NCBI RefSeq assembly: GCF_020524585.1
Contig: NZ_JAIVLK010000004.1
Location: 248,001-312,000, forward strand
Reading direction: 5' to 3'
DNA: 64,000 bases
From: Celeribacter naphthalenivorans
Lineage (GTDB): Bacteria; Pseudomonadota; Alphaproteobacteria; Rhodobacterales; Rhodobacteraceae
The notes under the pieces are model-generated. The model had not been told where the DNA came from and did not search any database. It was given only the letters and a program-made list of their open reading frames with translations. Position 1 is the stretch's first letter, and every line of letters begins with the position of its first letter. The translations under genes were made by a program, and so were the position numbers. Positions 33,273-52,813 of this stretch are shown here, one piece after another.

Positions 33273-33362
33273 GGAGACGTGGCCGAGTGGTCGAAGGCGC
33301 TCCCCTGCTAAGGGAGTAGGCGGGAAACCGTCTCGAGGGTTCGAATCCCTTCGTCTCCGCCA
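33273..33362 (+). tRNA. tRNA-Ser (anticodon GCU)
   Basis: A 90-base class II tRNA with CCA encoded. The acceptor stem GGAGACG pairs with CGTCTCC, the anticodon loop reads CTGCTAA giving GCU, a long variable arm follows, and the T arm contains GGTTCGAATCC. It reads serine AGC/AGU codons. Its 3' end is the attachment site of the island that follows. Confidence 0.97.
33349..33362 (+). repeat. attL: 3' end of tRNA-Ser, left core of the island
   Basis: CTTCGTCTCCGCCA is the last 14 bases of the tRNA gene and is repeated exactly at 48192-48205. The bases on either side differ (C versus A before, C versus T after), so the core is exactly 14 bp. Confidence 0.88.
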
Positions 33363-33424: not shown

Positions 33425-33486
33425 GATTATATGCATTCGTTGTTGATCTTCGAATTTCTTCGATTACACTCATTTCTGTTCAATGG

Positions 33487-33505
33487 GTGGTATAAAATGT
33501 GGTAT
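33487..33505 (+). repeat. Left GTGGTAT pair (candidate integrase arm sites)
   Basis: GTGGTAT occurs at 33487-33493 and again at 33499-33505 (12-base period). The same pair, with the same period and orientation, occurs at 48111-48129 near the right end. The left pair sits just before the integrase start codon. Confidence 0.6.
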
Positions 33506-33509
33506 ATCC

Positions 33510-34679
33510 ATGGCTCTCCATAGCGGCAAACTGACCAAGAATCTGGTGCGAACGCTTGGTCCCGGTCGGCATGGCGACGGAAACGGTCTCTATCTTGTGG
33601 TAGACCCCAGCGGCGCACGGCGCTGGATTGTGCGCGTCACCGTCAAGGGGCAGCGGAATCGGGAAGGCAAACCCCTGCGCACCGATTTTGGTTTGGGTGG
33701 CGCGGACATCGTGACGTTGAACCAAGCGCGTGACCGTGCGCTTGAATATCGCCGCATGGCGAAGCAAGGCCTCAATCCGCGCTACAATGTCCGTCAAGAG
33801 GTGCCTTGTTTTGAAGAGATCGCCCAGCAGGTTCACATTGAGCGTCTGCCGACGTGGAAGAATCCCAAGCACGGGCAGCAATGGATCAACACGCTCGCTG
33901 AATATGCCTTCCCGAAGATCGGGCGCTTGCCGGTATCGGAGGTCGGGCAGCCCGAGGTGTTGCAGGTTCTGCTTCCGATCTGGACCGAGAAACACGAAAC
34001 AGCCAAGCGCGTTGCGCAACGGATCAAGGCCGTGCTGGATGTGGCAAAGTCGAAGGGCTTCTACACTGGCGAAAACCCCGTCAACACGATCCGCGATGCC
34101 AAGGTGTTGCCGCGCGTCAAACAGAAGGTGCAGCACCACAAGGCGATGCGCTGGCAAGATGTGCCCGCCTTCTATGCCGACCTTGCGACGCGGGACGCCA
34201 CAGCGGCAAAAGCGCTAATGTTCACCTGCCTGACTGCAAGCCGGACCAGCGAGGTCTTGCAGGCCCGTTGGGACGAGTTTGATTTCGATGCGATGCTCTG
34301 GACGATCCCGGATGAACGGATGAAGGCCGGAGAGGAACACCGCGTCCCCCTGACACCCCAGATGATCGCCATATTGGAGCCATTGAAGGTGCTGCGATCA
34401 GAGGCGGTGTTTGAGGGGCAGAAACGACACAAGCCGTTGTCAAACATGGCCATGCTGATGCTTCTGCGACGCATGAAGATCGAAGGGATTACCGTGCATG
34501 GCTTCCGCTCGACTTTCCGCGATTGGGCTGCAGAGCGGCCTGATGTGTCCCGCGAGGTGGCTGAGATGAGCTTGGCGCACAAGGTGGGGTCGGATGTCGA
34601 GCGCGCCTATGCGCGGTCAGACCTGTTGGAGAAACGGCGCATTCTAATGGAGCAGTGGTGTTCCTATGTTACTGGGTAA
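33510..34679 (+). CDS. int: P4-type tyrosine integrase
   Basis: The 389-residue integrase catalyses site-specific recombination between the tRNA-Ser core and the excised circle. It has the N-terminal DUF4102-like arm-binding domain (LTKNLVRTLGPGRHGDGNGLYLVV), a central core-binding region, and the catalytic domain with Arg in LTASRTSEVLQ, the His-x-x-Arg in HGFRSTFRDW, and the nucleophilic Tyr in VERAYARSDLLEKR. An in-frame ATG at 33483 lies upstream, but starting there would translate the GTGGTAT repeats, so 33510 is preferred; neither has a good Shine-Dalgarno. Position and orientation just after the tRNA are typical of island integrases. Confidence 0.95.
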   Translation: MALHSGKLTKNLVRTLGPGRHGDGNGLYLVVDPSGARRWIVRVTVKGQRNREGKPLRTDFGLGGADIVTLNQARDRALEYRRMAKQGLNPRYNVRQEVPCFEEIAQQVHIERLPTWKNPKHGQQWINTLAEYAFPKIGRLPVSEVGQPEVLQVLLPIWTEKHETAKRVAQRIKAVLDVAKSKGFYTGENPVNTIRDAKVLPRVKQKVQHHKAMRWQDVPAFYADLATRDATAAKALMFTCLTASRTSEVLQARWDEFDFDAMLWTIPDERMKAGEEHRVPLTPQMIAILEPLKVLRSEAVFEGQKRHKPLSNMAMLMLLRRMKIEGITVHGFRSTFRDWAAERPDVSREVAEMSLAHKVGSDVERAYARSDLLEKRRILMEQWCSYVTG

Positions 34680-38909: not shown

Positions 38910-39389
38910 TTAATCCTCGAAGTCATATTTTGGTTTGGAGCGGCAGAATTTGCGCAGCTCTGCGAGACGCTCAGTGCGGAACCGGATCACCGCCATTTGA
39001 CGCTCGATTTCGATAAGGTTTTCCCGAATATCGCTGGGGAAATCGGCAAATATACGAGCGCTATATCGGTACTTGCCGCGCAACCTCACGGGTTCCGTGG
39101 GAGTGAACTTTTGTCCGCTGATGTTGCGACTTTTTCCACGAAACTTGACCCACTCGACCCGCGGCCCCAACATATCGGCTCTGACCCGGACGATGACGCC
39201 TAGGTTCACGCTCTGGCCCTCGCGTTTGCGATACTCGGTGAGAAGTTCAACCGCTTGGTCTCGAAGGGTCTGGGCGTCTTCGATCAACACTGCTTCGAGT
39301 TCGGGGAGCCAGTTGAGGAGACATTTTTCAAATTCGAAAGCCAAGTCGACGGAGGTTATCGGTGCCTTATTTTCTTCGTCATGCATCAC
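38910..39389 (-). CDS. Hypothetical protein coupled to the relaxase-like gene, 159 residues
   Basis: No family is certain. The protein is charged and basic in its second half (VKFRGKSRNISGQKFTPTEPVRLRGKYRYS), which suggests nucleic-acid binding, with a predicted helical C-terminus (ENLIEIERQMAVIRFRTERLAELRKFCRSKPK). Its stop lies three bases before the start of the HD relaxase-like gene, so the pair is cotranslated. By position it could be a relaxase accessory protein, comparable with MobI of SXT-type elements, but sequence similarity was not verified. Confidence 0.5.
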   Translation of the reverse strand: MMHDEENKAPITSVDLAFEFEKCLLNWLPELEAVLIEDAQTLRDQAVELLTEYRKREGQSVNLGVIVRVRADMLGPRVEWVKFRGKSRNISGQKFTPTEPVRLRGKYRYSARIFADFPSDIRENLIEIERQMAVIRFRTERLAELRKFCRSKPKYDFED

Positions 39390-39572: not shown

Positions 39573-39946
39573 CGTGCATCGCCCCCTTTTATCTTGAGAT
39601 GGCCAGTCTTGTTGTTCGTTGAGGCGAGATCGAGAATGATTTTGACTTGCTGGGTCCAACCGTCCGATTCAACAGGCTTTGGCCAACGGCCCGGCAAGCG
39701 GTAAAAGCTTCTCCCGTGCTCGTCGCGTAGTTGGACGATAAGTTCATTCAGCGGTGAAATACCCTCGCGGGCTAGGCGCTCATCCCATGTGCGCTCAAAA
39801 ATGCTCTGGCCAGCCGGAACCAACTGGAGGGTGGCATGAGATTGCCATTCCGCCGCATCAATAGACTGGGGTCTTTTTTCTTTTCTTTTTTCCCAAGACA
39901 TTTTTGTCCACTTACGTGGGACATTTTTGTCTCGCTCTTCGCACAA
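39569..39946 (-). CDS. C-terminal part of the HTH gene, in the shifted frame
   Basis: This frame overlaps the 3' part of the HTH gene. It contains SIFERTWDERLAREGISPLNELIVQLRDEHGRSFYRLPGRWPKP, which looks like a genuine folded domain, unlike the tail read in the first frame. It can be joined to the N-terminal frame by one extra A within the A6-G-A4-G-A6 tract at 39891-39874, giving a protein of about 250 residues. Its stop overlaps the start of the small downstream gene (ATGA). It may be a separate start at 39946, a mutation, or slippage. Confidence 0.55.
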   Translation of the reverse strand: MCEERDKNVPRKWTKMSWEKRKEKRPQSIDAAEWQSHATLQLVPAGQSIFERTWDERLAREGISPLNELIVQLRDEHGRSFYRLPGRWPKPVESDGWTQQVKIILDLASTNNKTGHLKIKGGDAR

Positions 39947-40320
39947 GAATGTCCGGGTTTAGCCTTATGAAGGAGGACCACTTTGTCCGCTTCTTCTGTT
40001 TCGCGAAGTTCTTGGGCCGCCTGACGCGATGAAATGGAAGGTGTATATTCCGTGGAATGGCCTTGCCCGCTTCCACGCTTGATTTCGAACCAATTTTTGT
40101 CAAGTTCGCGGACCAAGCGCTGGACGGTCTTCTCACTTTTGAGCCCCAAATCTTTACAAACGGTCGCGTGGGAAGGCCATGCTTTGCCACGGTTATCGTT
40201 GTACCGAAGCACAGCCAGATAGACCGCAAAGTGCACAGCGCGCGCGCTCAAAGTGGTGTCTTTGACCAAAAGGCGCAGCCATTGAAGTTGAACCTCTTTG
40301 AAGGGACGGAGGTCAGACAT
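39772..40320 (-). CDS. HTH_36-type replication/plasmid-like DNA-binding protein, N-terminal frame
   Basis: The first 100 residues form a winged helix of the HTH_36 kind, with KEVQLQWLRLLVKDTTLSARAVHFAVYLA, YNDNRGKAWPSHATVCKDLGLKSEKTVQRLVREL and KNWFEIKRGSGQG. Such domains occur in plasmid replication initiators and island regulators. After residue 147 the frame runs into LMRRNGNLMPPSSW and stops, and the conserved-looking continuation is in the next frame, so the gene is split at an A-rich tract. The start ATG follows the stop of the Xis-like gene directly (TAGCAATG), so the two are coupled. AT-rich codon use supports an island origin. Confidence 0.68.
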   Translation of the reverse strand: MSDLRPFKEVQLQWLRLLVKDTTLSARAVHFAVYLAVLRYNDNRGKAWPSHATVCKDLGLKSEKTVQRLVRELDKNWFEIKRGSGQGHSTEYTPSISSRQAAQELRETEEADKVVLLHKAKPGHSCAKSETKMSHVSGQKCLGKKEKKKDPSLLMRRNGNLMPPSSWFRLARAFLSAHGMSA

Positions 40321-40787: not shown

Positions 40788-43700
40788 ATGGAATTGCACG
40801 AGCTTCTGGAGGGATATCGCGCGGCATCGCAAAATGAGCGTGAAAAGGGCGATTACTTTGAGCGGCTGGTCCGCGTCTTCCTTGAAAACGACGATACGCA
40901 GAAGCAATTCTACTCCGAGGTGGTGCCGTTCTCCGAATGGGCGAAAGCGCAGGGGTGGAGTAAGGCGGACACCGGGATTGATCTGGTTGCTACACTCGCG
41001 GATGGATCGGGATACGCGGCGATCCAGTGCAAGTTCTACGCGCCGAACCACAGCATCCAGAAACCCGACATCGACAGCTTCATCTCGGCGGCTTCGAACG
41101 ATCTGTTCACACGCCTGATCATCGCTGACACCACCCGCAAGGAGTTTGGCAGGAACGCCAGAGAAACCCTCGACAAGCTGTCAAAGGACTGGAACCGGAT
41201 CGGGATCAACGAGCTTGAGTCGAGCCGGATCGACTGGTCGCAGTTCATCCGCACCGGCACGATCAGCCTCGCGCCCAAGAAGCAGCTTCGTGACCACCAG
41301 CGCGATGCGCTGCAAGAAGTCATGGACGGCTTGTCAGAAGCCGACCGCGGCAAGCTGATCATGGCTTGCGGCACAGGCAAGACATTCACCGGACTGCGGA
41401 TTGCCGAAACCATCGCGGGCAAAGGCAGGCGTGTGCTCTTCATGGTGCCCTCACTTGCGCTCATGTCGCAGACCGTGCGCGAATGGAAGAACGACTGCCA
41501 AGAGGATTTTACCGCATTCTCAGCATGTTCCGATACCAAAGTCGGGCGCAATGCCGATGCCGACAGCCTCGATCTGAACGTGCATGATTTGGCCTTCCCG
41601 GCGACGACTGACCCAGAGCGGCTGGCCCGTCAGGTCAACGATGCACCCGCCGACAAGATGACGGTCGTTTTCTCGACCTATCATTCGATTGACGTGCTGA
41701 CGCGGGCGCAAAAGCAATACGGGCTGCCCGAGTTCGATCTGGTTATCTGTGACGAGGCGCACCGCACCACCGGCGTCACGTTGAAGGACGAGGACGACAG
41801 CAACTTTGTCCGCATTCACAGCAATGACCATGTGGCCGCAAAGAAACGGCTCTACATGACGGCCACACCCCGCATTTTTGGGGATGCCGCCAAGCGCAAG
41901 GCCGATGACCACGACGCCGAGCTGGCCTCGATGGACGATGAGACCAAGTTCGGCAAAGATCTGTTCCATCGCGGGTTCGGTTGGGCCATCGAGAACGAGC
42001 TTTTGACCGACTATAAAGTGGTCGTTCTGGCGGTGGACGAGGGGCTTATCTCAACCACCATTCAGAACCGCCTCAAAGAAAGCTCCGAACTCAAACTGGA
42101 CGACGCAACCAAGATTATCGGCTGCTACAAGGCTCTAACGAAATCCGATCTAGCTGCCGATCTGGAATTCGACCCGCGACCTATGCGCCGCGCACTGGCT
42201 TTCTGCCAAAGCATTGATAAATCGCGAGCGATCCAAAACGAATTCACTCAAGTCGTTGAGGAATACACCGGCAACGAGCTGATCGACGACGCCCGCCACC
42301 TCTACACCGAAGTCCGCCACATCGACGGCAGCTTCAACGCCAGCGCGCGCGAGGAAATGCTGAATTGGCTCAAGACCGATGCGGGCGACGACACCTGCCG
42401 CATCCTGACCAATGCCAAGGTTCTCTCTGAGGGGGTGGACGTGCCCGCGCTTGACGCCATCATGTTCATGCACCCGCGCAAGAGCCAGATCGACGTTGTG
42501 CAATCCGTTGGCCGCGTTATGCGCCGCGCCGAGGGCAAGAAGCTCGGCTATGTCATCCTGCCCGTGGCCATCCCGCCCAATACCAAGCCCGAAGAGGCGC
42601 TGAACGACAACGAACGCTACAAGGTCGTCTGGCAAATCCTCAACGCCCTGCGCGCCCACGACGAACGCCTAGACGCCCGCATCAACCAAGCCAAGATTGG
42701 CGAAGACATCAGCGACAAGGTGGAGCTGGTCCGCATCTCCTCGGAATCCGAGCTGCGTGAACTGACCGCCGTGGTCGATGACTTCGCCACCTCAAAATCC
42801 AAAGCGGCTAAAAAATCGGATATCGGCAGCGATGCACCCGAGCGCCGCCAAAGCGATGCGGTCATCGAACAAACCGAAATGGTCTTCGACGAATTCACCC
42901 GCGCCATCATGGCCAAGATCGTCGAAAAATGCGGCACCCGCGAATATTGGGATACCTGGGCCAAGGACATCGCCAAGATCGCCCAGACCCACATCACGCG
43001 CATCACAACCATCATCGCCAAGGGTGGGCCCGAACGCACCGCCTTCCTCGCCTTTCTCGAAGAACTGCATGACGACCTGAATCCCGAGATTTCCGAGGCC
43101 GAAGCCATCGAGATGCTGGCCCAGCACCTCATCACCAAGCCGGTTTTTGATGCGCTCTTCAAAGGCAGCCGCTTCACCAAGGAAAACCCCGTTTCCCGCG
43201 CGATGGAGATCGTGCTGGGTCAGCTCCATGAGCACAATCTGGAAAAGGAATCCGACAGCCTCGCCAAATTCTACGCCAGCGTGGAACGCCGCGCGGCGGA
43301 TGTGAAAACCGCCCAAGGTCGCCAGACGCTCATCACCGAGCTTTACGACAAGTTCTTTCGCACGGCCTTCCCCGTGCTGACCGCGCGGCTTGGCATCGTC
43401 TACACCCCTGTCGAGGTGGTGGATTTCATCATCCACTCGGTCAATGACGTGCTGAAAGCGCAGTTCGGCCAGACGCTCGGCTCCAAGGGTGTGCATATCC
43501 TTGACCCCTTCACCGGCACCGGTACCTTCATCACCCGCCTGCTGCAATCGGGCCTGATCGCGCAGGACGAGTTGGAGCACAAATACAAGCACGAGATCCA
43601 CGCCAACGAGATCGTGCTCTTGGCCTATTACATCGCCGCCGTGAACATCGAGACGGTCTATCACGAACTGGCCTATGGCTCGCTCTCGGCCAACGCGCCC

Positions 43701-45677
43701 TATGACCCGTTCGAGGGCATCCTGCTGACCGACACCTTCCAGATGTATGAGCAGGAACGCGACATGGTCGCCAACCTTCTGCCCGATAACTCGGAGCGCC
43801 GGACCAAGCAAAAGGCGTTGGATATCCGCGTGATTATTGGCAACCCGCCTTATTCCGCAGGGCAGAACAGCGCGAACGATAACGCTGCGAACATCGCCTA
43901 TCCGCAATTGGATGCAAAAATCCGCGACACCTATGCCGCGCACTCGACGGCAACCCTAAAAAATTCGCTTTACGACAGCTATATCCGAGCCTTCCGTTGG
44001 GCGAGTGATCGGATTGGCAATGCTGGCGTCATGGCATTCGTGACCAATGCGAGTTGGATCGACGGGAACGCCGCTGATGGGATGCGCAAATGCCTCGCCG
44101 AAGAGTTCAGCGATCTCCACATCTTCCATCTTCGCGGCAATCAGCGAACGTCCGGAGAGATTTCGCGTAAGGAAGGTGGCAAGATTTTCGGGTCGGGCAG
44201 CCGTGCGCCGATTGCGATTTCGGTGCTCGTCAAGAATCCCGACGCCACCGCACTCGGGCATATCCATTTTCATGACATCGGCGACTACCTCGACCAGAAG
44301 AAAAAGCTGGCGATCATTCGGAACTTTGGCTCAGTTGATGGCATTTCGAAAGCCAACGGCTGGAAAAATATCACGCCGGATGAAAATAATGATTGGCTTG
44401 ATCAGGTGGATCGCAGCTTCGATAAATATATAGAAATCGCTGCAAAAAACGGCGCCAGTGTATTCTCAAGATACTCTGGCGGCCTAAAAACGAACCGTGA
44501 CGCATGGATCTATGCTTCGTCAGTAGCGATGCTTGAAGGTCAAATTTCTAGAAGCGTTGACTTCTTTAATCAGCAGCTTGACGAATTTACCTCTTCGTCA
44601 ACCCCCCTTCCTGCCAAGGACTTTGTTAAAAAAGACCCAAGTTTTTTTAGCTGGACTGACAAGGCCTACAAGCTGATCGAGTCCGGTAAAGGTCAGCAGA
44701 TATCGAGAGAGAAGTTTCGCATCGGCATGTTTAGGCCTTTCGACAAGCGCCATTTCTACTTTGACGAAAACTTGATCGAACGACCGGGTTCTTGGAAGGA
44801 TTTCTATCCACCTTCTGGGGTTGGTGAAGGCGTAAATCGGACAATCTGCGTCTCAGGTAGGGGCCATCGCGGAGCGTTTTCAAGCTTGATGGCTGACTCC
44901 GTCCCGAACTACAATTTTGCCGATATAGATAACAATCAATGCTTCCCCCTCTATCTCTATGAAGAAACCCAACCCGATGACGGCCTCTTCGCGGCCTCGG
45001 GCGATCAGACGAGCGGCCTCACCCGCCGCGATGCGATCACCGATCAAGGTCTCGCGCATTTCCAAGCTGCCTATCCGGGGGAAGAAATCAGCAAGGAAGA
45101 CCTGTTCTATTACATCTACGGTCTGCTGCACTCGCCCGATTACCGCGAGCGCTTCGCCAACAACCTCGCCAAACAGCTCCCCCGCATCCCGGCGGTGAAA
45201 ACCTTTGCCGACTTCGCCGCCTTCCGCGACGCGGGTCGCGCCCTAGGCGATCTGCATGTGAATTTCGAAACCGTCACGCCCTACATGGTCACCTTCAAGG
45301 AAGGCGACCACCGCCTGATCCCCGAGGCCGAGGCCACGCCTGCGAAATTCTACCGCGTCAAAAAGATGAAGTTCGGTGGCAAGGGCAAGGAAAAGGACCG
45401 CACTACCGTCATCTACAACGAAAACATCACCATGCAGAACATTCCGCTGGAAGCCTATGACTACGTGGTCAACGGCAAACCCGCGCTGGAATGGGTGATG
45501 GAACGCCAGGTGGTCAAGGCCGACAAGGCCAGCGGCATCGTAAACGACGCCAACGACTATGCCAACGAAACTGTCGGCGATCCGCGCTATCCGCTGGAGC
45601 TGTTCCAGAGGGTGATCACGGTGAGCCTTGAGACGATGAAAATAGTGAACAGCCTGCCAGGGCTGGAGATTGAGTGA
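40788..45677 (+). CDS. Type ISP restriction-modification enzyme (nuclease-helicase-methyltransferase)
   Basis: The 1,629-residue single polypeptide carries all functions of a Type ISP enzyme (LlaBIII-like). Domains in order: Mrr-like PD-(D/E)xK nuclease at 1-150 (Asp65, then Gln80-Cys-Lys82); superfamily 2 translocase with Walker A CGTGKT near 194-199, DEAH at 322-325, MTATP near 357 and SVGRVMRR near 574; N6-adenine methyltransferase with motif I DPFTGTGTF from 906 and motif IV NPPY at 1019-1022; a specificity region about 1180-1390; then a C-terminal domain. The enzyme methylates its site and cuts unmethylated DNA after translocating along it. The specificity region is AT-richer than both flanks. 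Its stop overlaps the next start (TGATG). Confidence 0.93.
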   Translation: MELHELLEGYRAASQNEREKGDYFERLVRVFLENDDTQKQFYSEVVPFSEWAKAQGWSKADTGIDLVATLADGSGYAAIQCKFYAPNHSIQKPDIDSFISAASNDLFTRLIIADTTRKEFGRNARETLDKLSKDWNRIGINELESSRIDWSQFIRTGTISLAPKKQLRDHQRDALQEVMDGLSEADRGKLIMACGTGKTFTGLRIAETIAGKGRRVLFMVPSLALMSQTVREWKNDCQEDFTAFSACSDTKVGRNADADSLDLNVHDLAFPATTDPERLARQVNDAPADKMTVVFSTYHSIDVLTRAQKQYGLPEFDLVICDEAHRTTGVTLKDEDDSNFVRIHSNDHVAAKKRLYMTATPRIFGDAAKRKADDHDAELASMDDETKFGKDLFHRGFGWAIENELLTDYKVVVLAVDEGLISTTIQNRLKESSELKLDDATKIIGCYKALTKSDLAADLEFDPRPMRRALAFCQSIDKSRAIQNEFTQVVEEYTGNELIDDARHLYTEVRHIDGSFNASAREEMLNWLKTDAGDDTCRILTNAKVLSEGVDVPALDAIMFMHPRKSQIDVVQSVGRVMRRAEGKKLGYVILPVAIPPNTKPEEALNDNERYKVVWQILNALRAHDERLDARINQAKIGEDISDKVELVRISSESELRELTAVVDDFATSKSKAAKKSDIGSDAPERRQSDAVIEQTEMVFDEFTRAIMAKIVEKCGTREYWDTWAKDIAKIAQTHITRITTIIAKGGPERTAFLAFLEELHDDLNPEISEAEAIEMLAQHLITKPVFDALFKGSRFTKENPVSRAMEIVLGQLHEHNLEKESDSLAKFYASVERRAADVKTAQGRQTLITELYDKFFRTAFPVLTARLGIVYTPVEVVDFIIHSVNDVLKAQFGQTLGSKGVHILDPFTGTGTFITRLLQSGLIAQDELEHKYKHEIHANEIVLLAYYIAAVNIETVYHELAYGSLSANAPYDPFEGILLTDTFQMYEQERDMVANLLPDNSERRTKQKALDIRVIIGNPPYSAGQNSANDNAANIAYPQLDAKIRDTYAAHSTATLKNSLYDSYIRAFRWASDRIGNAGVMAFVTNASWIDGNAADGMRKCLAEEFSDLHIFHLRGNQRTSGEISRKEGGKIFGSGSRAPIAISVLVKNPDATALGHIHFHDIGDYLDQKKKLAIIRNFGSVDGISKANGWKNITPDENNDWLDQVDRSFDKYIEIAAKNGASVFSRYSGGLKTNRDAWIYASSVAMLEGQISRSVDFFNQQLDEFTSSSTPLPAKDFVKKDPSFFSWTDKAYKLIESGKGQQISREKFRIGMFRPFDKRHFYFDENLIERPGSWKDFYPPSGVGEGVNRTICVSGRGHRGAFSSLMADSVPNYNFADIDNNQCFPLYLYEETQPDDGLFAASGDQTSGLTRRDAITDQGLAHFQAAYPGEEISKEDLFYYIYGLLHSPDYRERFANNLAKQLPRIPAVKTFADFAAFRDAGRALGDLHVNFETVTPYMVTFKEGDHRLIPEAEATPAKFYRVKKMKFGGKGKEKDRTTVIYNENITMQNIPLEAYDYVVNGKPALEWVMERQVVKADKASGIVNDANDYANETVGDPRYPLELFQRVITVSLETMKIVNSLPGLEIE

Positions 45678-47203
45678 TGAGATTTCATGTTCTGCCCCGG
45701 AAGGTGACTAGGCCACGCAGCGGGAAAAACGAAGTTTTTCTTACGATCGATCATTGGAACGACTATTCGTATGTCACCAGTTTTCATGTCTATGTTTTCG
45801 ACGAGAATGGAGTCGGTGCCGAGTTGCCAAATATTCGCATAGGTTTCGTCGGTCAAACTACTGACGTTGAAACCTATAAAAAGCTTGAGGAAGGTTTCGA
45901 GGCACTTTCGCAAGAATTCTTCTCTCTGGGCATCGGAGTCGAATACTATAGGCAGCTTCATTCTGACTTCAGTGAAGCCTGGCGCGCTCAATATCTGGAA
46001 GGGTTGCAAGATGTCGTTTGGAACCTGGATCACTTGGAGCGTGTTGAGCACGAAAAGGTGTTTCAAACAAGTCATTTGCGGTCGGTCACTGTTAGCCGAA
46101 TTCGCGATCAATATGCGAGCGTGTTACGCGGCGATGTTGAGCTGACCGATTTCGATTTTGGCTTTCAGATGCCACAAACTGAAAAGTTCGCAGGGTTCGA
46201 CCTTCAATTTAAAGTTTCCGCGAACTCCACACCAAGCACGAACATGCACGCTTTGATCGGGCGAAATGGCGTGGGTAAAACCACACTCTTGACTGAAATG
46301 GTGAATTCAGTCCTGCAAAAAGAGGAGAGTGCCTCTTACTTTTACAAAAACGAGTGGCATGGGCCGCAGCGTATCGTTGGGAACTATTTTAATCGGGTCC
46401 TGTCGGTCGCCTTTAGTGCATTCGATCCATTTGAACTTCCCGCAAAGAATGAGGAGGAGACATACCAGTACATCGGACTGACGGACCTTTCTGACTCCGG
46501 CAAAACCATAACAAAATCGAAAGACCAGCTTTACGAGGAATTTATAGAGGGGCTCAAAATCTGTTTTGGGGAGCCAAGACGAAAGAGTCGTTGGATTCAG
46601 GCGGTTGAAACGCTCCAAAGTGATAAAAACTTTGAAGAAATGCGGCTTCTTGAGCTTGTAGATCTGAGCGAAAATGAGGCTTTGGATATTGCGCTGCGCC
46701 GGATCAAGAAAATGAGTTCTGGGCATACGATCGTAATTCTGATCATGACTTTGCTCGTTGCGAACGTAGAAGAGAAGACATTGGTTCTTTTTGACGAGCC
46801 AGAGGGGCACCTACATCCCCCTCTATTATCTGCTTTGATGAGAAGTTTGAGCCAGTTGCTATTCACTAGAAACGCTGTCGCAATTATTGCTACCCATTCG
46901 CCCGTGGTCCTTCAGGAAATTCCCGCTTCCTGTGTGTGGAAGGTTTTTCGGGAGCGGCGGAGCTCAGATAAAATGAGGCCGAAAACTGAGACGTTTGGGG
47001 AGAATGTGGGTGTTCTAACCCGCGAGGTTTTCGGTCTTGAAGTTGAAAAATCCGGTTTTCATAACGTGTTGCGCCATTTGGTTGAGCGAGGCGGGACCTA
47101 CGATGATATCCTGGAAACGCTTGGCAAACATCTCGGTGCCGAGGCAAGGGGAATTCTTCGCGCAATGGTTGCAAATCGCGATGAAAATGACATGAAGCAA
47201 TGA
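45677..47203 (+). CDS. SMC-like AAA ATPase, Septu PtuA-like component
   Basis: The 508-residue protein has an N-terminal domain of about 185 residues (MRFHVLPRKVTRP, then DEN/ELPNIRIGFVG) of unknown fold, followed by an ABC/SMC-like ATPase: Walker A IGRNGVGKTTLL at 194-205, signature region SSGHTIV near 351, Walker B and catalytic Glu in LFDEPEGHLHP (Asp373, Glu374), and ATHSPVV (H-loop). This AAA_21 type pairs with HNH nucleases in Septu (PtuAB). Its ATG overlaps the Type ISP stop by one base and its stop overlaps the HNH start by four, so all three are one operon. The N-terminal domain is not typical of classical PtuA, so a distinct subtype is likely. Confidence 0.82.
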   Translation: MRFHVLPRKVTRPRSGKNEVFLTIDHWNDYSYVTSFHVYVFDENGVGAELPNIRIGFVGQTTDVETYKKLEEGFEALSQEFFSLGIGVEYYRQLHSDFSEAWRAQYLEGLQDVVWNLDHLERVEHEKVFQTSHLRSVTVSRIRDQYASVLRGDVELTDFDFGFQMPQTEKFAGFDLQFKVSANSTPSTNMHALIGRNGVGKTTLLTEMVNSVLQKEESASYFYKNEWHGPQRIVGNYFNRVLSVAFSAFDPFELPAKNEEETYQYIGLTDLSDSGKTITKSKDQLYEEFIEGLKICFGEPRRKSRWIQAVETLQSDKNFEEMRLLELVDLSENEALDIALRRIKKMSSGHTIVILIMTLLVANVEEKTLVLFDEPEGHLHPPLLSALMRSLSQLLFTRNAVAIIATHSPVVLQEIPASCVWKVFRERRSSDKMRPKTETFGENVGVLTREVFGLEVEKSGFHNVLRHLVERGGTYDDILETLGKHLGAEARGILRAMVANRDENDMKQ

Positions 47204-48111
47204 GAAATCTGCCCCAACCGCCTTTTGGAGCCACGGAACTTTTTGACGAGAGTGTTAACGGTCTTACCGACGATGCACTTCGCGAAAAGTTCGAAAATAA
47301 TCGGGATAAAGTGGTTTCTGCATTTAATGACTTTGCGGCAAAAACCGCTGCAGTGTCATGGTGCGCATTGCCTCGATGGGGCCGAGGACATGATGAAGCT
47401 AAAGTTGCCGGAGAGCTTACAAAGGGTGATCTAGTCAATTTGTACGACAGTGGCGTCGTGAAATCCAAGGCAAGGCCACGTGACATTTACGACGCTATCA
47501 AGCTCGCGGCTCATGATGAGTGTCCATATTGTGGTGGTGTTGGTGACATAGGTTTTGACGGAGAACTTGGCACGGCCGATCACTTTTTGCCGAAATCAAG
47601 ATTTCCTGTTTATTCCGTTCTGCCCTTGAACTTAGTGCCCGCTTGTAGTGTGTGTAATAAGGGAATGGGTGATAACTTCCCTACTGAACGCGAAAAGCAA
47701 CCGTTGCACCCCTACTTAGATTCCCCTCATTTCTTCAACGTGAAATGGACGTCGGCTCAAATTGTTGAAGATTTGCCGGTTATGGCGAACTTCAGTGTCG
47801 TTCCGCCTGAAGATTGGTCAGAAATCGATAAAGCTCGTGTAAAGGCTCATTTCGATGACTGTTCACTGGCCTCGCGATACCGGTCTCGTGTCTCATCTGA
47901 GGTAACCCCATTAATTTCACAGCGCAAATCTAGCTTGTCTTGGCTCAGTGCAGAAAAGTTTAAGGCGCACCTGCAAACGGTGGCTGACGAAAGTAGTCTG
48001 CCGATCAATGGCTGGAAGCGGACCCTGTATGCGGCATTGGCGGCGTCGGATTGGTTCTGTAGTCGCGAGCGGTTGGTCGACAAGGAGGAGGAGGTGCTCT
48101 TTGTGCCGTAG
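47200..48111 (+). CDS. HNH endonuclease, Septu PtuB-like component
   Basis: The 303-residue protein has a zinc-finger HNH core: Cys108-x2-Cys111 (CPYC), Asp127-His128 (TADHFLPKSRF, catalytic His), Asn144 (PLNLVPAC) and Cys149-x2-Cys152-Asn153 (CSVCN). This is the PtuB-like arrangement. The N-terminal 100 residues and the C-terminal 100 are alpha-helical and unassigned. Start ATGA overlap with the ATPase gene shows strict coupling. The likely role is DNA or RNA cleavage on infection once released or activated by the ATPase, by analogy with Septu. It is the last gene of the island; the GTGGTAT repeats begin at its stop codon. Confidence 0.84.
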   Translation: MRNLPQPPFGATELFDESVNGLTDDALREKFENNRDKVVSAFNDFAAKTAAVSWCALPRWGRGHDEAKVAGELTKGDLVNLYDSGVVKSKARPRDIYDAIKLAAHDECPYCGGVGDIGFDGELGTADHFLPKSRFPVYSVLPLNLVPACSVCNKGMGDNFPTEREKQPLHPYLDSPHFFNVKWTSAQIVEDLPVMANFSVVPPEDWSEIDKARVKAHFDDCSLASRYRSRVSSEVTPLISQRKSSLSWLSAEKFKAHLQTVADESSLPINGWKRTLYAALAASDWFCSRERLVDKEEEVLFVP

Positions 48112-48191: not shown

Positions 48192-48205
48192 CTTCGTCTC
48201 CGCCA
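48192..48205 (+). repeat. attR: right core of the island
   Basis: An exact copy of CTTCGTCTCCGCCA from the tRNA-Ser 3' end; it marks the original chromosome junction before integration. Confidence 0.88.
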
Positions 48206-48469: not shown

Positions 48470-49354
48470 GTGTCCGAGAGCCTCGCATACGCCGAACTGA
48501 TCGCCGTTCTCGTCGCTGTGACGGACAATGAGCCGCGTGTCATGACGATTGATGCCGGGGAAGCCTTGCCGTCAGGGCCGTTTGAGACGAGCCATCGCAC
48601 GCTGCAAAGTGGGCTGCGCGCCTGGGTGGAAAGCCAGACCGGGCACCCCGTCGGATATCTGGAACAGCTCTATACCTTTGCGGATCGTGACCGGGCGCTT
48701 GATGCCGGGACCGGTGCGGCGCAAACGCGACATATTTCGATTGGATATCTGGGGCTTGTCCGCGAACAGGTGGCCCTCGGCGCCGGACGCCCGGAGTGGC
48801 ACAGCTGGTATGAATATTTCCCGTGGGAAGATCACCGGGACGGCCGTCCTGATCTGTTGACGGGTCTCTCAGAGCGGCTTTTGGACTGGGCTGGCGATCA
48901 CGAGGTCCGTAGGCAGAGGGTCGACTTTCTTTTCGGGCTCAATGGTCAGCTCTGGAACGAAGATCTGGTCTTGCAACGCTATGAGTTGATCTATGAGGCC
49001 GAGCTTGAGAAAGTGGCGGGGTTCGGTCGTCAAATGGCGAGCGATCATCGGCGCATTCTGGCCACCGGGATCACGCGGCTCAGGGCCAAGATCAAATATT
49101 ACCCCGTGGTCTTCGAATTGATGCCCGATAGCTTCACGCTCTTGGATCTTCAGCGGATGACCGAGGCCTTGGCGGGGGTGAGGCTGCATAAATCGAACTT
49201 CCGTCGGCAGATCGATCAGCAGAACCTGATCGAGGAAACCGGCGAGATGTCGAGTGAGACGGGCGGGCGGCCTGCCAAGCTGTTCCGCTACCGGCCCGCC
49301 GTCGTCGAAGCGAGCAGCCTTTCGGGCGCGCGCCTCCCTTATTCACGACACTGA
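48470..49354 (+). CDS. nadQ: Nudix-type NAD biosynthesis regulator, NadQ family
   Basis: The 294-residue protein has an N-terminal nudix-like domain without an intact nudix box (residues 1-140) and a C-terminal winged helix with GVRLHKSNFRRQIDQQNLIEE and TGGRPAKLFRYR, the pattern of NrtR/NadQ-type regulators of NAD synthesis. In alphaproteobacteria NadQ represses nadABC and senses a NAD-related metabolite (family knowledge). The start is GTG 48470 with TAGGAAA upstream. It is 80 bases before nadA, in the same direction, with two operator-like palindromes between them. Confidence 0.82.
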   Translation: MSESLAYAELIAVLVAVTDNEPRVMTIDAGEALPSGPFETSHRTLQSGLRAWVESQTGHPVGYLEQLYTFADRDRALDAGTGAAQTRHISIGYLGLVREQVALGAGRPEWHSWYEYFPWEDHRDGRPDLLTGLSERLLDWAGDHEVRRQRVDFLFGLNGQLWNEDLVLQRYELIYEAELEKVAGFGRQMASDHRRILATGITRLRAKIKYYPVVFELMPDSFTLLDLQRMTEALAGVRLHKSNFRRQIDQQNLIEETGEMSSETGGRPAKLFRYRPAVVEASSLSGARLPYSRH

Positions 49355-49365
49355 CTGTCATGGTC

Positions 49366-49394
49366 TTGACATAAACTCAGATGGAGAATAAGTC
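49366..49394 (+). promoter_or_regulatory. Probable nadABC promoter
   Basis: A perfect -35 TTGACA (49366-49371) and a weak TAAGTC (49389-49394) at 17 bases. The spacer is filled by the first operator-like site, so bound repressor would block RNA polymerase. Confidence 0.45.
49371..49390 (+). promoter_or_regulatory. NadQ operator-like site 1 (imperfect)
   Basis: ATAAACTC-AGATG-GAGAATA carries the same CTC-N5-GAG core as site 2, but with imperfect arms. It lies within the promoter spacer. Confidence 0.45.
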
Positions 49395-49404
49395 ATGCCT
49401 CGGA

Positions 49405-49423
49405 TGTACTCAAATCGAGTACA
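49405..49423 (+). promoter_or_regulatory. NadQ operator-like site 2 (perfect palindrome)
   Basis: TGTACTCAAATCGAGTACA has two perfect 7-base arms around AAATC. It ends one base before the nadA Shine-Dalgarno AGGAGGA. It lies 34 bases after site 1, about three helical turns. Confidence 0.65.
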
Positions 49424-49434
49424 AGGAGGACCCT

Positions 49435-50403
49435 ATGACGACCATGCGCTTGCCTGAGCTTTACGACCGCGTTTCCAAAATCATTCCGCACCCGGACTGG
49501 ATGCTGTTTGAGGATGACATTGCGGCCATTCTCGAGCTGAAAAAACAGAAAAACGCGGTCATCCTCGCGCATAATTACCAGACCCCCGAAATCTTTCACG
49601 GGGTGGCCGACATCGTGGGTGATAGTCTGGCTCTGGCGCGTAAAGCCGTGGACGTCGAGGCCGATGTCATCGTGCTGGCGGGCGTGCATTTCATGGCGGA
49701 AACGGCCAAGCTCTTGAACCCGGAAAAGACCGTTCTGATCCCGGACATGCGCGCGGGTTGTTCTTTGGCGGAGTCGATCACGCCGGAAGACATCGCACTT
49801 TTGCGGGCCGCGCATCCGGATGTGCCGGTCGTCACCTATGTGAACACCTCCGCCGCCGTCAAAGCCGCCTCCGACATTTGCTGCACCTCCGGCAACGCCA
49901 AGCAGGTTGTCGAATCTCTCGGCGTGCCCAAGGTTCTGATGCTGCCGGATGAATACCTGGCCCAAAACGTCGCGCGGGACACGGATGTCGAACTGATCGC
50001 ATGGAAGGGTCACTGCGAAGTCCATGAACTGTTCACCCCGCAAGATGTGCGCAGCATGCGCGAGGCCTATCCCGGCGTGACCATCCTCGCGCATCCCGAA
50101 TGCCCGCCCGAGGTCGTCGCAGAGGCGGATTTCTCCGGCTCGACGGCGGTGATGTCGAATTATGTCGGGGAGGCAAAACCCGCGCGCGTGCTGCTTTTGA
50201 CCGAGTGTTCGATGAGCGACAACGTGGCGGTGAACCACCTGGATGTGGAGTTTGTGCGGCCCTGTAACCTCTGTCCGCATATGAAACGGATCAGCCTGCG
50301 CAACATCCGCGAGACGCTTGAGACCGGGCTTCACGAAGTGACCATTGATCCTGCGGTCGCGGATGATGCGCGTCGCGCGGTCGAGCGCATGCTCGCAGTC
50401 TGA
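49435..50403 (+). CDS. nadA: Quinolinate synthase A
   Basis: NadA condenses iminoaspartate with dihydroxyacetone phosphate to make quinolinate, using a [4Fe-4S] cluster. The 322-residue protein shows AHNYQTPEIFHGVADIVGDSL, the cluster cysteines in DMRAGCSLA, in the GHCEVH segment and in RPCNLCPHM, and HPECPPEV. Start ATG 49435 follows AAGGAGGA; the open frame before it overlaps the operator. nadB begins at the overlapping TGATG, so nadABC forms one operon. Confidence 0.95.
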   Translation: MTTMRLPELYDRVSKIIPHPDWMLFEDDIAAILELKKQKNAVILAHNYQTPEIFHGVADIVGDSLALARKAVDVEADVIVLAGVHFMAETAKLLNPEKTVLIPDMRAGCSLAESITPEDIALLRAAHPDVPVVTYVNTSAAVKAASDICCTSGNAKQVVESLGVPKVLMLPDEYLAQNVARDTDVELIAWKGHCEVHELFTPQDVRSMREAYPGVTILAHPECPPEVVAEADFSGSTAVMSNYVGEAKPARVLLLTECSMSDNVAVNHLDVEFVRPCNLCPHMKRISLRNIRETLETGLHEVTIDPAVADDARRAVERMLAV

Positions 50404-51962
50404 TGCAGAGCCTTGAAAAGCTGGCGGGCCAGGTCGTCGTTGTCGGGAGCGGTATTGCCGGCCTGATGACAGCGCTCGAACTGGCGCCTCGGCCCGTGGT
50501 GCTGGTCACCCGCGCCGAACTTGGTCGCGAAAGCTCAAGTCTCTGGGCGCAGGGTGGCATTGCCGCAAGTCTTGGGCCGGATGACGATCCCGAGCTGCAT
50601 CTTGCCGATACGCTCGCGGCCGGGGCGGGGCTTTGCGATCAGGAGGTGGCGCGAGGGATTCTCTCGGACGCGGGCGATGCAATCGCGACCCTGGAACACT
50701 ACGGCGTGCGGTTCGACCGCAAGGCCGATGGAACCTTTTCCCTCGGTCTCGAGGCGGCCCACGGGCGGCGCCGCATCCTTCATGCAGGTGGCGACGGATC
50801 GGGTGCCGCGATCACATTGGCCTTGGCCGAAGCCGTGCGCCGGACGCCGTCGATCACGCTGTTGACCGGCGTGGAGGCGCGCCGAGTGCTCACCGAAGAA
50901 GGGCGTGTCACCGGGCTTTTGCTTCAGACGGAGACAGAGGCGGGCATTCTGTCCACGACGCAGGTGGTGCTGGCGACCGGCGGTCTTGGCGGTCTCTTTG
51001 ATGCCACAACCAACCCCTCCGGCAATGTCGGGCAGGGCGTCATGATGGCCGCCCGCGCAGGCGCGCTTCTGACCGATATGGAGTTCGTGCAATTCCATCC
51101 CACCGCGCTCGATGTCCCGCGCACGCCGCTGCCCCTCGTCAGCGAAGCGGTCCGGGGCGAGGGGGCGTGGCTGCTCAACGGGGCAGGCGCGCGGTTTATG
51201 CAGGACACTGAAGGGGCGGAGCTTGCCCCGCGTGACGTGGTGGCCCGTGCGATCCATGCCCAGATCGCGCAGGGGCAGCGTGTTTATCTCGATGCGTCCC
51301 GCATGCTTGGTCCGCGATTTGCCACAGCCTTTCCCACCATCGACCGCCTGTGCCGTGAGGCAGGGATTGATCCCGCGCGCGACCCGATCCCGGTCCGCCC
51401 GGCGGCGCATTACCACATGGGCGGCGTGGCCACGGACGCCTTTGGTCGCACAAGTCTTGCGGGCCTCTGGGCGGTTGGAGAATGCGCCGCGACGGGGCTG
51501 CATGGGGCCAATCGGCTCGCCAGCAACTCTCTTTTGGAGGCGGTGGTCATGGCGCGCCGTGCGGCGAAGGCTTTAGGCGAAACTCCGGCTTCCGCGACAA
51601 AAGGGGCTCTGCGCACAGCTCTGGCCCAGCCCTTGCCTCGCACCGACGTGGATACTGTTCGCCCCATCGTTTCCAACCATCTCGGGCTGATCCGTGACAA
51701 GGCCGGGATTGACGACGCGATCCGCCGTTTGCGTCCGCTGGTCTTGGATGACGGCCCGGCCTCTGATCCCGCGCTCGTTGCGCTCTCGATCGCATGCTTT
51801 GCCGCGCTGCGTCTGGAGACGCGGGGCGGACATGCGCGGCGGGATTTTCCGAACCTACTGAGCAAACCCATCCGCCACCGGATGGACCTTGATGACATTC
51901 TGGCCGCGACCGCTGATCTGGGCCCGGCCAAGCCTCCCCTCGTTTCGGAGTATATGACGTGA
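50403..51962 (+). CDS. nadB: L-aspartate oxidase
   Basis: NadB oxidises aspartate to iminoaspartate with FAD, the first step of de novo NAD synthesis, and hands the unstable product to NadA. The 519-residue flavoprotein begins with the dinucleotide-binding VVVGSGIAGLMTALEL, followed by SSLWAQGGIAASLG, the substrate-binding HGRRRILH, EFVQFHPTAL, and HYHMGGVATDAFGRTSLAGLWAVGECA. It overlaps nadA by one base and nadC by four (GTGA). The C-terminus is the shorter helical domain of the succinate dehydrogenase/fumarate reductase family. Confidence 0.95.
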   Translation: MQSLEKLAGQVVVVGSGIAGLMTALELAPRPVVLVTRAELGRESSSLWAQGGIAASLGPDDDPELHLADTLAAGAGLCDQEVARGILSDAGDAIATLEHYGVRFDRKADGTFSLGLEAAHGRRRILHAGGDGSGAAITLALAEAVRRTPSITLLTGVEARRVLTEEGRVTGLLLQTETEAGILSTTQVVLATGGLGGLFDATTNPSGNVGQGVMMAARAGALLTDMEFVQFHPTALDVPRTPLPLVSEAVRGEGAWLLNGAGARFMQDTEGAELAPRDVVARAIHAQIAQGQRVYLDASRMLGPRFATAFPTIDRLCREAGIDPARDPIPVRPAAHYHMGGVATDAFGRTSLAGLWAVGECAATGLHGANRLASNSLLEAVVMARRAAKALGETPASATKGALRTALAQPLPRTDVDTVRPIVSNHLGLIRDKAGIDDAIRRLRPLVLDDGPASDPALVALSIACFAALRLETRGGHARRDFPNLLSKPIRHRMDLDDILAATADLGPAKPPLVSEYMT

Positions 51963-52813
51963 CCCTTTCTCCTCTGCCTCACCTGATGATCGAACCCGTC
52001 GTGCGCCGCGCGCTTGAAGAGGATCTCGGCCTTGCCGGGGACATCACGTCGATGGGGGCAATCCCCGCCGGGCATCGCTCGGTCGTCACCGCCGTGTCCC
52101 GCACGCAAGGCGTCATTGCCGGCCTCGATTGTGCCGAAATTGCCTGTCACCTCGTCGATCCGAAGATCAAATTTACTCGCCTCGTCGAAGATGGTGCGCC
52201 CGTGTCGCCCGGCACCCATATCGCCACCTTTGAAGGCCCGTCGCGGAGCTTGCTGACTGCCGAACGCACGGCGCTTAATTTCATGGGGCATCTGTCCGGC
52301 ATCGCCTCTGTCACGGCGGAGCTGGTGCGCGCGGTCTCTGGCACGAAGGCGGCGATCACCTGTACGCGCAAGACCACGCCGGGGCTGCGGGCGTTGGAGA
52401 AATATGCGGTGCGCGCGGGCGGGGGGATGAATCATCGCTACTCTCTCGCCGACGCGGTTCTGATCAAGGACAACCATATCGCTTTGGCCGGTGGGATCCG
52501 CCCGGCGCTTGAAGGTGTGTGGGCTGTGGCGGGGCATCTTGTGAAGATCGAGATCGAGGTGGACACGTTGGATCAACTGGCCCAAGTGCTTGAAATCGGC
52601 GCGGACGCCGTGTTGCTGGACAACATGTCCCCTGAGATGTTGCGCGAGGCCGTGGCCATGGTGGATGGGCGCGCGATCACCGAAGCCTCGGGCGGCATCA
52701 CGCCGGAAACGGCGGCTTCCGTGGCGGCTTCTGGTGTGGATTTGATCTCTCTGGGCTGGATCACCCATAGCGCGCCGGTGCTGGATATCGGGCTGGATTT
52801 CATGCCGGAATAA
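51959..52813 (+). CDS. nadC: Nicotinate-nucleotide pyrophosphorylase (quinolinate phosphoribosyltransferase)
   Basis: NadC converts quinolinate and PRPP to nicotinate mononucleotide with loss of CO2. The 284-residue protein shows EEDLGLAGDIT, the substrate-binding RTALNFMGHLSGIAS, CTRKTTPGLRALEKYAV, GGGMNHRYSLADAVLIKDNH and EASGGITPE, all typical. The start codon is GTG 51959, overlapping the nadB stop. It completes the NAD module, which is closed by a short palindromic hairpin about 110 bases downstream. Confidence 0.95.
   Translation: MTLSPLPHLMIEPVVRRALEEDLGLAGDITSMGAIPAGHRSVVTAVSRTQGVIAGLDCAEIACHLVDPKIKFTRLVEDGAPVSPGTHIATFEGPSRSLLTAERTALNFMGHLSGIASVTAELVRAVSGTKAAITCTRKTTPGLRALEKYAVRAGGGMNHRYSLADAVLIKDNHIALAGGIRPALEGVWAVAGHLVKIEIEVDTLDQLAQVLEIGADAVLLDNMSPEMLREAVAMVDGRAITEASGGITPETAASVAASGVDLISLGWITHSAPVLDIGLDFMPE

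Follow-up and report, generated by a model that had tools for sequence, protein, structure and literature searches.

The window analyzed here, a stretch of 64,000 nucleotides of Celeribacter naphthalenivorans (contig NZ_JAIVLK010000004.1, positions 248,001 to 312,000 of the forward strand), contains an operon in which a gene for a Type ISP restriction-modification (R-M) enzyme is followed by genes for an ABC ATPase and an HNH nuclease resembling the PtuA and PtuB proteins (PtuAB) of Septu (Table 1). This operon is a new combination of known parts, not a new system, and a slightly recurrent composite. Its analysis revealed several characteristic features: (i) the gene content, motifs and predicted folds identify a Type ISP enzyme and a PtuAB-like pair whose genes overlap by one and four bases, (ii) the operon is the last cargo of an integrative element with ends at a tRNA-Ser gene, and (iii) the pair and the ISP gene are each found with other partners elsewhere, which is a pattern of modular exchange. 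On balance, we consider it probable that the operon provides a layered defense, in which restriction is co-expressed with an exchangeable second-line nuclease that is probably autonomous.

Genes and proteins of the operon

The three open reading frames (ORFs) lie on the same strand in the order ISP-ATPase-HNH, with the coordinates and overlaps given by the original prediction, which had been made from this DNA alone. At the ISP/ATPase junction GAGTGATGAG, the ISP stop codon TGA (45675-45677) shares one base with the ATPase start codon ATG at 45677; the ORF list starts the ATPase at GTG 45674, whereas relatives match the ATG form from its first residue onward. At the ATPase/HNH junction CAATGAGA, the HNH start codon ATG at 47200 overlaps the ATPase stop codon by four bases. 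The G+C content is 0.566 for the ISP gene, 0.474 for the ATPase gene and 0.496 for the HNH gene. Scans for promoters (6 vs 4.5 +/- 2.1) and terminators (8 vs 10.1 +/- 3.2) gave counts at the level of shuffled sequence.

The first gene encodes a Type ISP enzyme, as had been claimed: the single-chain domain set and the nuclease, ATPase and methyltransferase motifs are all present. The domains follow in the order Mrr nuclease, SF2 helicase, coupler, N6 methyltransferase and specificity domain, matched in Pfam by Mrr_cat_2, ResIII, Helicase_C, ISP_coupler, N6_Mtase and Type_ISP_C. The motifs QCKFY at residue 80, ACGTGKT at 193, DEAH at 322, DPFTGTG at 906 and GNPPY at 1018 are present; we take the last four to be the ATPase and methyltransferase motifs of ISP enzymes. 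The PD-QXK form of the nuclease motif of these enzymes has been described (PMC3874165; this and the other papers cited by PMC number were available in part, and statements drawn from them are limited to the available text). The same domain order is found in LlaBIII (4xqk; 1221 bits, residues 14-1629) and LlaGI (1150 bits), which match the protein over most of its length. Both are described as single-chain enzymes (PMC3874165), whereas the ISP gene of the window has a nuclease pair behind it. The ISP gene was not found in the other 19 of the 20 genus genomes searched (E <= 1e-50).

The second and third genes form a Septu-like ATPase-HNH pair, and here too the original prediction was right: the genes are adjacent, their products match PADLOC system PDC-M01, and the predicted folds are of the PtuA and PtuB types. 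PDC-M01 appears in a published PADLOC-based study as a candidate system, itself unpublished, with matches that are partly duplicates of Septu calls (PMC11811056). The ATPase, encoded by a single-copy gene in its genome, matches PDC-M01A with 640 bits over residues 2-504 and the PtuA1 model PDLC00282 with 588 bits over residues 3-505; Walker A, signature and Walker B are present (motifs GRNGVGKTT, SSGH, LVLFDEPE and THSP). Its AlphaFold model (predicted local distance difference test, pLDDT, 89.5) was best aligned by VIA-align with chain 9vhe_E of the retron-Eco7 complex (Z 18.5, root-mean-square deviation (rmsd) 5.2, 312 residues, model residues 145-508). Rows 1-18 of this comparison are PtuA or retron PtuAB chains with Z 14.7-18.5, and the best non-PtuA row has 14.7. 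Because the whole-chain template modeling (TM) scores from Foldseek are low (0.26-0.40 with the PtuA chains listed), the likeness to PtuA is one of domains and not of the whole chain.

The HNH protein matches PDC-M01B with 317 bits over residues 1-289. Its model (pLDDT 91.1) aligned by VIA-align with chain 9u9y_H of the retron Ec78 effector complex (Z 11.4, rmsd 5.1, 193 residues, residues 1-278), and 10 of the 11 rows with Z >= 2 among the 45 chains compared are chains of PtuAB or retron complexes, where 9u9y_H and the other complex chains were taken as PtuB by chain. Foldseek gave weak matches only (E 0.043). Seven residues, C108, C111, D127, H128, N144, C149 and C152, are invariant in 37 of 37 rows; D127-H128 and N144 belong to the HNH motif, and the four cysteines probably bind zinc.

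The ATPase had been said to carry an N-terminal domain atypical of PtuA. Such a region is indeed extra relative to the solved PtuA: structural matches to PtuA start at model residue 144-159, and the core begins at residue 159, as compared with residue 2 of E. coli Septu PtuA 8eea_C, a position that is a trait of that structure and not clearly defining for Septu. The region is typical of the subfamily, as the PDLC00282 match over residues 3-505 indicates; the approximately 150 extra residues align in 15 of 15 rows (window included), and phage lambda Ea59 matches query residues 1-507. A domain unique to the ATPase of the window was ruled out by its presence in these relatives, including Ea59.

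Occurrence of the pair with and without ISP genes

To count the neighbors of the ATPase gene, 87 loci with a long alignment were reduced to 77 clusters at 95% identity, 76 of which have at least 300 bases upstream; rows with fewer than 400 aligned residues or E > 1e-40 and 15 shorter duplicate loci had been dropped. The neighbor loci include 10 of 91 plasmid records and 1 of 24 phage records. An HNH gene lies beside the ATPase in 71 of the 76 non-redundant loci, and an ISP gene in two, the window and genome G232 (locus L043). The pair is therefore mostly without ISP (74 of 76 loci), which is the first half of what the original prediction had named as evidence against itself. In G232, the ISP, ATPase and HNH proteins are 79%, 54% and 36% identical to those of the window, the ISP and ATPase genes are separated by a 3-base gap, and the ATPase and HNH genes overlap by one base.

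Among the 295 genomes of the same-family sample, the ATPase was found in 5 (E <= 1e-100), the ISP protein in 10 (E <= 1e-200) and both in 2, and in both of these the two genes are adjacent. For the co-occurrence alone, P is 0.01 if the window is included and 0.12 if it is left out. With random gene order, approximately 1.6e-5 ISP-ATPase neighbors would be expected in this sample without the window (3,900 genes per genome assumed), a null that takes no account of defense-gene clustering. The class sample (385 genomes) has the ATPase in 6 genomes (E <= 1e-25) and ISP in 15, both being present in the window genome only. The order sample has the ATPase in 11 of 390 genomes (E <= 1e-40); no ISP match was seen beside it in nine further loci of this sample (flank of approximately 1.5 kb or less), and the remaining two are the window and genome G262 (L045), which has the ATPase without an ISP match. 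A conserved three-gene ISP system was rejected, as the ISP-AAA-HNH order recurs in G232 and in no other of the loci examined.

R-M genes were sought upstream of the pair with seven R-M queries, and the resulting counts of R-M genes are lower bounds. No R-M gene was found directly upstream in 72 of the 76 ATPase loci. The same applies to ATPases that are 63-65% identical to that of the window (clusters L002/L053, where L053 is a viral contig, and L003/L004/L191, where L191 is outside the rows of the seven-query scan). In at least two further loci, G773 and L146, the pair is preceded by a type I R-M gene at a distance of no more than 50 bases. G773 (L197, minus strand, 14524 to 5241) has a six-gene operon hsdR-hsdS-orf305-hsdM-ATPase-HNH, in which four of five junctions are four-base overlaps and hsdM and the ATPase gene are 33 bases apart. 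Its ATPase is 80% identical to that of L003, and its other products match a type I R subunit (3h1t, E 4e-21) and EcoKI HsdS (2y7c, E 4e-21); the 305-residue protein has no PDB match at E 0.1. On the viral contig L146, an HsdM match is followed by an HsdS-like frame (Methylase_S 21.1 bits, just under the cut-off of 22), and four bases further on a more distant pair (29%) begins. Looser cases are a D12 methyltransferase gene 223 bases upstream of the ATPase (L188) and genes for a cytosine methyltransferase and a very-short-patch endonuclease upstream (L040). Other genes located up to approximately 65 bases upstream of the ATPase encode nSTAND (L087), HATPase_c (L041) and AAA_21 (L128) proteins and S24 peptidases (L133).

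Modular exchange between restriction genes and partners

The partners of ISP genes were examined in 29 loci: all 10 same-family matches (window included), 10 of 14 other class-sample genomes (the four left out are contig-end fragments), all 5 viral contigs and 4 of the 189 plasmid records. At nine of these loci, a neighbor on the same strand, located within approximately 60 bases, gave a PADLOC match at E <= 1e-5: the pair (twice), PDC-M53 (twice), AbiL/RloB, PDC-S06, a methyltransferase and generic PIF1/RecD helicases (twice); the scan covered twenty genes of 15 loci, and unscanned loci were counted as misses. The ISP clade that is 75-79% identical to the ISP protein of the window carries the ATPase-HNH pair twice. 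The other partners in this clade are PDC-M53 (L055), SIR2-HerA 173 bases downstream (L058) and AbiL/RloB upstream (L059), and the remaining members have unrecognized genes (L057, L068) or nothing recognized. In L058 (11033-13825), a viral contig, SIR2-HerA lies downstream of the ISP gene, and in L059 (3072-4975), a Peteryoungia plasmid, the AbiLi/RloB pair is directly upstream of it. In L063 (12557-15037; G247), the ISP gene is followed within a few bases by a gene whose product, an AAA_13 protein (PDC-S06), weakly matches PrrC (E 9e-7); the PDC-S06 match starts approximately three bases past the ISP stop codon, and the longest frame starts earlier.

The window clusters with L002, L003, L004 and L053 in the ATPase tree (100/100); L050 joins next (100/99), and only then G232 (98/86). 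In the ISP tree, built by a quick method, the window and G232 are not sisters: G232 falls into a group with L056 and L074 (96), and the fork that holds the window is weaker. The ISP proteins of the window and G232 have 3 private residues in common, which ranks 39 of 45 pairs. For the ATPase, the private columns in common with the window number 8 for G232, 7 for L003 and 11 for L050. A search of the ATPase for ISP-specific residues gave no signal, the count for G232 not exceeding those for L003 and L050. Co-evolution of the three genes found no support, as both trees part the two composites and private residues show no excess. What stands of the proposed distinct composite system is a tightly packed ISP/Septu-like composite, which is real and was found twice; a co-evolved three-gene system is unsupported.

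Integrative element and tRNA-Ser site

The element has a length of 14,843 bases, is bounded by copies of the tRNA-Ser 3' end, and carries the operon as its last cargo before attR. Chromosome homology in three relatives (G689, G678 and G686) stops exactly at the last base of the tRNA gene (33362). Because the tRNA-Ser side and the nrtR side are on different contigs in G689, the element ends rest on the att repeats, on the divergence of the three relatives at the tRNA end and on a parallel element in G688, a species of the same genus. There, the same tRNA-Ser gene is followed by an integrase gene with a 77% identical product, and the 20-base context GGCGGACTTCGTCTCCGCCA of the attR of the window is also found at the attR of that element (L181:1758-13387). 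Before its attR, the G688 element has hsdM, hsdS, a gene for a PrrC homolog (457 bits) and hsdR (EcoR124_C), an EcoprrI-like operon. The order hsdM-hsdS-prrC-hsdR (M-S-C-R) is that of prr. The embedding of prrC in the operon has been described (PMC3874165). In the window, the MobH-like HD protein of the element may be a shortened relaxase.

Table 1. Features of the integrative element and its defense operon in the window
Feature	Coordinates	Strand	Evidence and remarks
tRNA-Ser(GCU) gene	33273..33362	+	ARAGORN; last 14 bases (33349-33362) are attL (14-nt direct repeat)
Tyrosine integrase of the element	33483..34679	+	Pfam Phage_int_M, Arm-DNA-bind_3, Phage_integrase; adjoins tRNA
MobH-like HD protein, 408 aa	37680..38906	-	Pfam TraI_2; NCBIfam MobH 121 bits, below cut-off 200
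MobI-like protein	38910..39389	-	Pfam MobI 47 bits
Helix-turn-helix protein	39772..40320	-	Pfam HTH_36; divergent from operon
Type ISP restriction-modification enzyme, 1629 aa	40788..45677	+	Pfam domains, LlaBIII match, motifs
PtuA-like ABC ATPase (PDC-M01A / lambda Ea59 family), 508 aa	45677..47203	+	PADLOC, AlphaFold model, motifs
ATPase N-terminal region, ~residues 1-153	45677..46135	+	Extra vs E. coli Septu PtuA; common to subfamily
PtuB-like HNH nuclease (PDC-M01B / lambda Ea31 family), 303 aa	47200..48111	+	PADLOC, model, conserved residues
attR, copy of tRNA-Ser 3' end, end of element	48192..48205	.	14-nt repeat

A second integrase-like gene is present in the G688 element (L181, 4765-5784), and a related integrase end was found on a G678 contig (L184). 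Beyond attR (48470-52813), an NrtR-like regulator gene (NrtR_WHD) is located upstream of three frames that, from their sequences and with no search behind the names, are presumably nadA-, nadB- and nadC-like.

Comparison with known systems

By descent, the pair of the window is of the Septu/retron PtuAB sort, and by context, it is of the PrrC sort. Like PtuAB of Septu and retron I-A, it consists of an ABC ATPase and an HNH protein encoded by adjacent genes, with the PtuA fold over residues 145-508 and the PtuB fold along the HNH protein. It differs from Septu PtuAB by the approximately 150 extra N-terminal residues of the ATPase, a structure-based identity of only about 15%, and the R-M gene upstream. 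Both proteins match PDC-M01 over nearly their full length, whereas the PDC-M01 loci examined are usually without an attached R-M gene. Phage lambda ea59-ea31 (L085:2998-5462) encodes proteins 44% and 29% identical to the ATPase and HNH protein, respectively, with the same four-base overlap. The lambda genes adjoin int, whereas the pair of the window adjoins the ISP gene. From these similarities, Ea59 and Ea31 look like a PtuAB-type pair; no paper joining ea59 with PtuA was found in the open-licence literature.

In EcoprrI-PrrC, a type IC R-M system with an embedded anticodon nuclease, a single operon encodes both the R-M proteins and an ABC-ATPase nuclease, and the overlapping same-strand genes of the window show the same combination. 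In the window, however, an ISP enzyme takes the place of type I, the nuclease is a separate HNH protein, and there is no PrrC homolog: AAA_13, the Pfam family of the G688 PrrC, is absent from the 16 Pfam families matched by the ATPase at E <= 0.1, and PrrC is not among the best 25 of 146 PADLOC families. TgvAB of V. cholerae VPI-2 is likewise a two-gene defense module within an R-M operon; it differs in being GmrSD-like and in a type I operon, and showed anti-phage activity when expressed in E. coli (PMC11411939, through which the embedded systems of Payne et al. are also known to us). Among the titles listed in searches of the open-licence literature, none was on a Type ISP/Septu combination.

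Proposed role of the ATPase-HNH pair

We infer the co-expression of the three genes and the activity, trigger and target of their products as follows. An element in tRNA-Ser would carry a single two-module defense operon. Its predicted ISP module would methylate host sites and cleave unmodified incoming DNA, while the PtuAB-like pair would be translated from the ISP mRNA by coupled stop-start overlaps and self-assemble into an ATP-gated complex. A phage surviving restriction would switch the pair on, and the activated pair would cut nucleic acid (tRNA or DNA) and stop the infection. The pair would thus be an exchangeable cassette on the 3' end of an R-M gene, placed there for co-expression, and not a part of the restriction enzyme. 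Related activities have been reported: Septu EcB88 PtuAB cleaves tRNA-Tyr and requires its Walker and HNH residues (PMC13096335), retron-Eco7 PtuAB cuts tRNA-Tyr (PMC11555353), and nicked DNA is the reported substrate of another Septu PtuAB (PMC13096335, PMC11555353). In the available text of these two papers, no R-M enzyme takes part in PtuAB cleavage.

The main rival explanation is a PrrC-like guard, in which the ISP enzyme holds the ATPase-HNH pair latent until phage inhibition of restriction frees a tRNA-cutting, growth-stopping nuclease, as in EcoprrI, where PrrC is kept latent by the type I enzyme and released on T4 infection (PMC3874165). The hsdM-hsdS-PrrC-hsdR operon at the same tRNA site in the sister species, the two type I operons closed by the pair, the AAA_13 protein that is encoded behind the ISP gene of L063 and weakly matches PrrC, and the tRNA-Tyr cleavage by retron-Eco7 and Septu EcB88 PtuAB (PMC11555353, PMC13096335) all point toward such a guard. 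Nevertheless, ISP is absent from 74 of the 76 ATPase loci, the two ISP-linked cases lack an excess of shared private residues, and the HNH nuclease is a separate PtuB-like protein and not a PrrC-type chain; we regard a guard as possible though unlikely. We favor an autonomous second line over it: the pair usually has no R-M neighbor, both trees separate the two ISP cases, and shared private changes are in excess in neither protein. The suggestion that the pair backs up restriction or senses its failure gains circumstantial support from the pair also ending two type I R-M operons and from the EcoprrI-like R-M/PrrC operon at the same tRNA in the sister species.

Defense genes cluster on mobile elements, and one element could have captured two unrelated cassettes, their overlaps reflecting compact insertion with no joint use. 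The G+C difference between the modules, the presence of the pair at only 2 of 29 ISP loci and the 72 of 76 ATPase loci with no R-M gene found directly upstream agree with such packing by chance, whereas the exact one- and four-base overlaps in the window, the 3-base gap and 1-base overlap in G232, and the order of R-M gene and then pair in four loci make it quite improbable. Still less credible, and in our judgment very unlikely, is a shared DNA substrate, i.e. a pair acting as a DNA nuclease on ISP-made nicks or ends and finishing restricted DNA. ISP enzymes translocate, and their cuts fall at random between two sites (PMC3874165); nicks presumably arise on the way to cleavage; yet the pair is usually without an ISP partner, and two other PtuAB cut tRNA (PMC13096335, PMC11555353).

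Several points weigh against an autonomous second line. The overlaps, together with two ISP and two type I cases in which the pair always follows the R-M gene, suggest more than random clustering; therefore, a functional link with restriction may exist. Tested PtuAB resemble the pair only distantly (about 15% identity, TM 0.26-0.40), and thus the trigger and target of the pair may differ. A single gain of the pair by an ISP gene with later losses would also be compatible with the trees.

Implications

The most useful results are the pattern of exchange and the presence of a PrrC operon at the same tRNA. A bolder generalization, which we consider doubtful, is that EcoprrI exemplifies a general principle, by which R-M operons would provide at their ends a docking slot for different ABC-ATPase nucleases (PrrC, PtuAB, RloC-like, AbiL/RloB) guarding restriction. 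ISP enzymes would then be guarded by the two proteins of PtuAB, which would fire once restriction had been disabled by a phage. If so, Type ISP enzymes would offer a single-chain, biochemically tractable case. Lambda ea59-ea31 belongs to the same family, and any activity found for the pair would suggest a testable role for those genes. Plug-in nucleases in type I R-M operons, PrrC and TgvAB, are already known. The PtuAB-like pairs on two ISP and two type I operons, together with PrrC at the tRNA of the sister species, form a natural exchange series, in which one can ask if such nucleases guard restriction or act as a second line independent of it.

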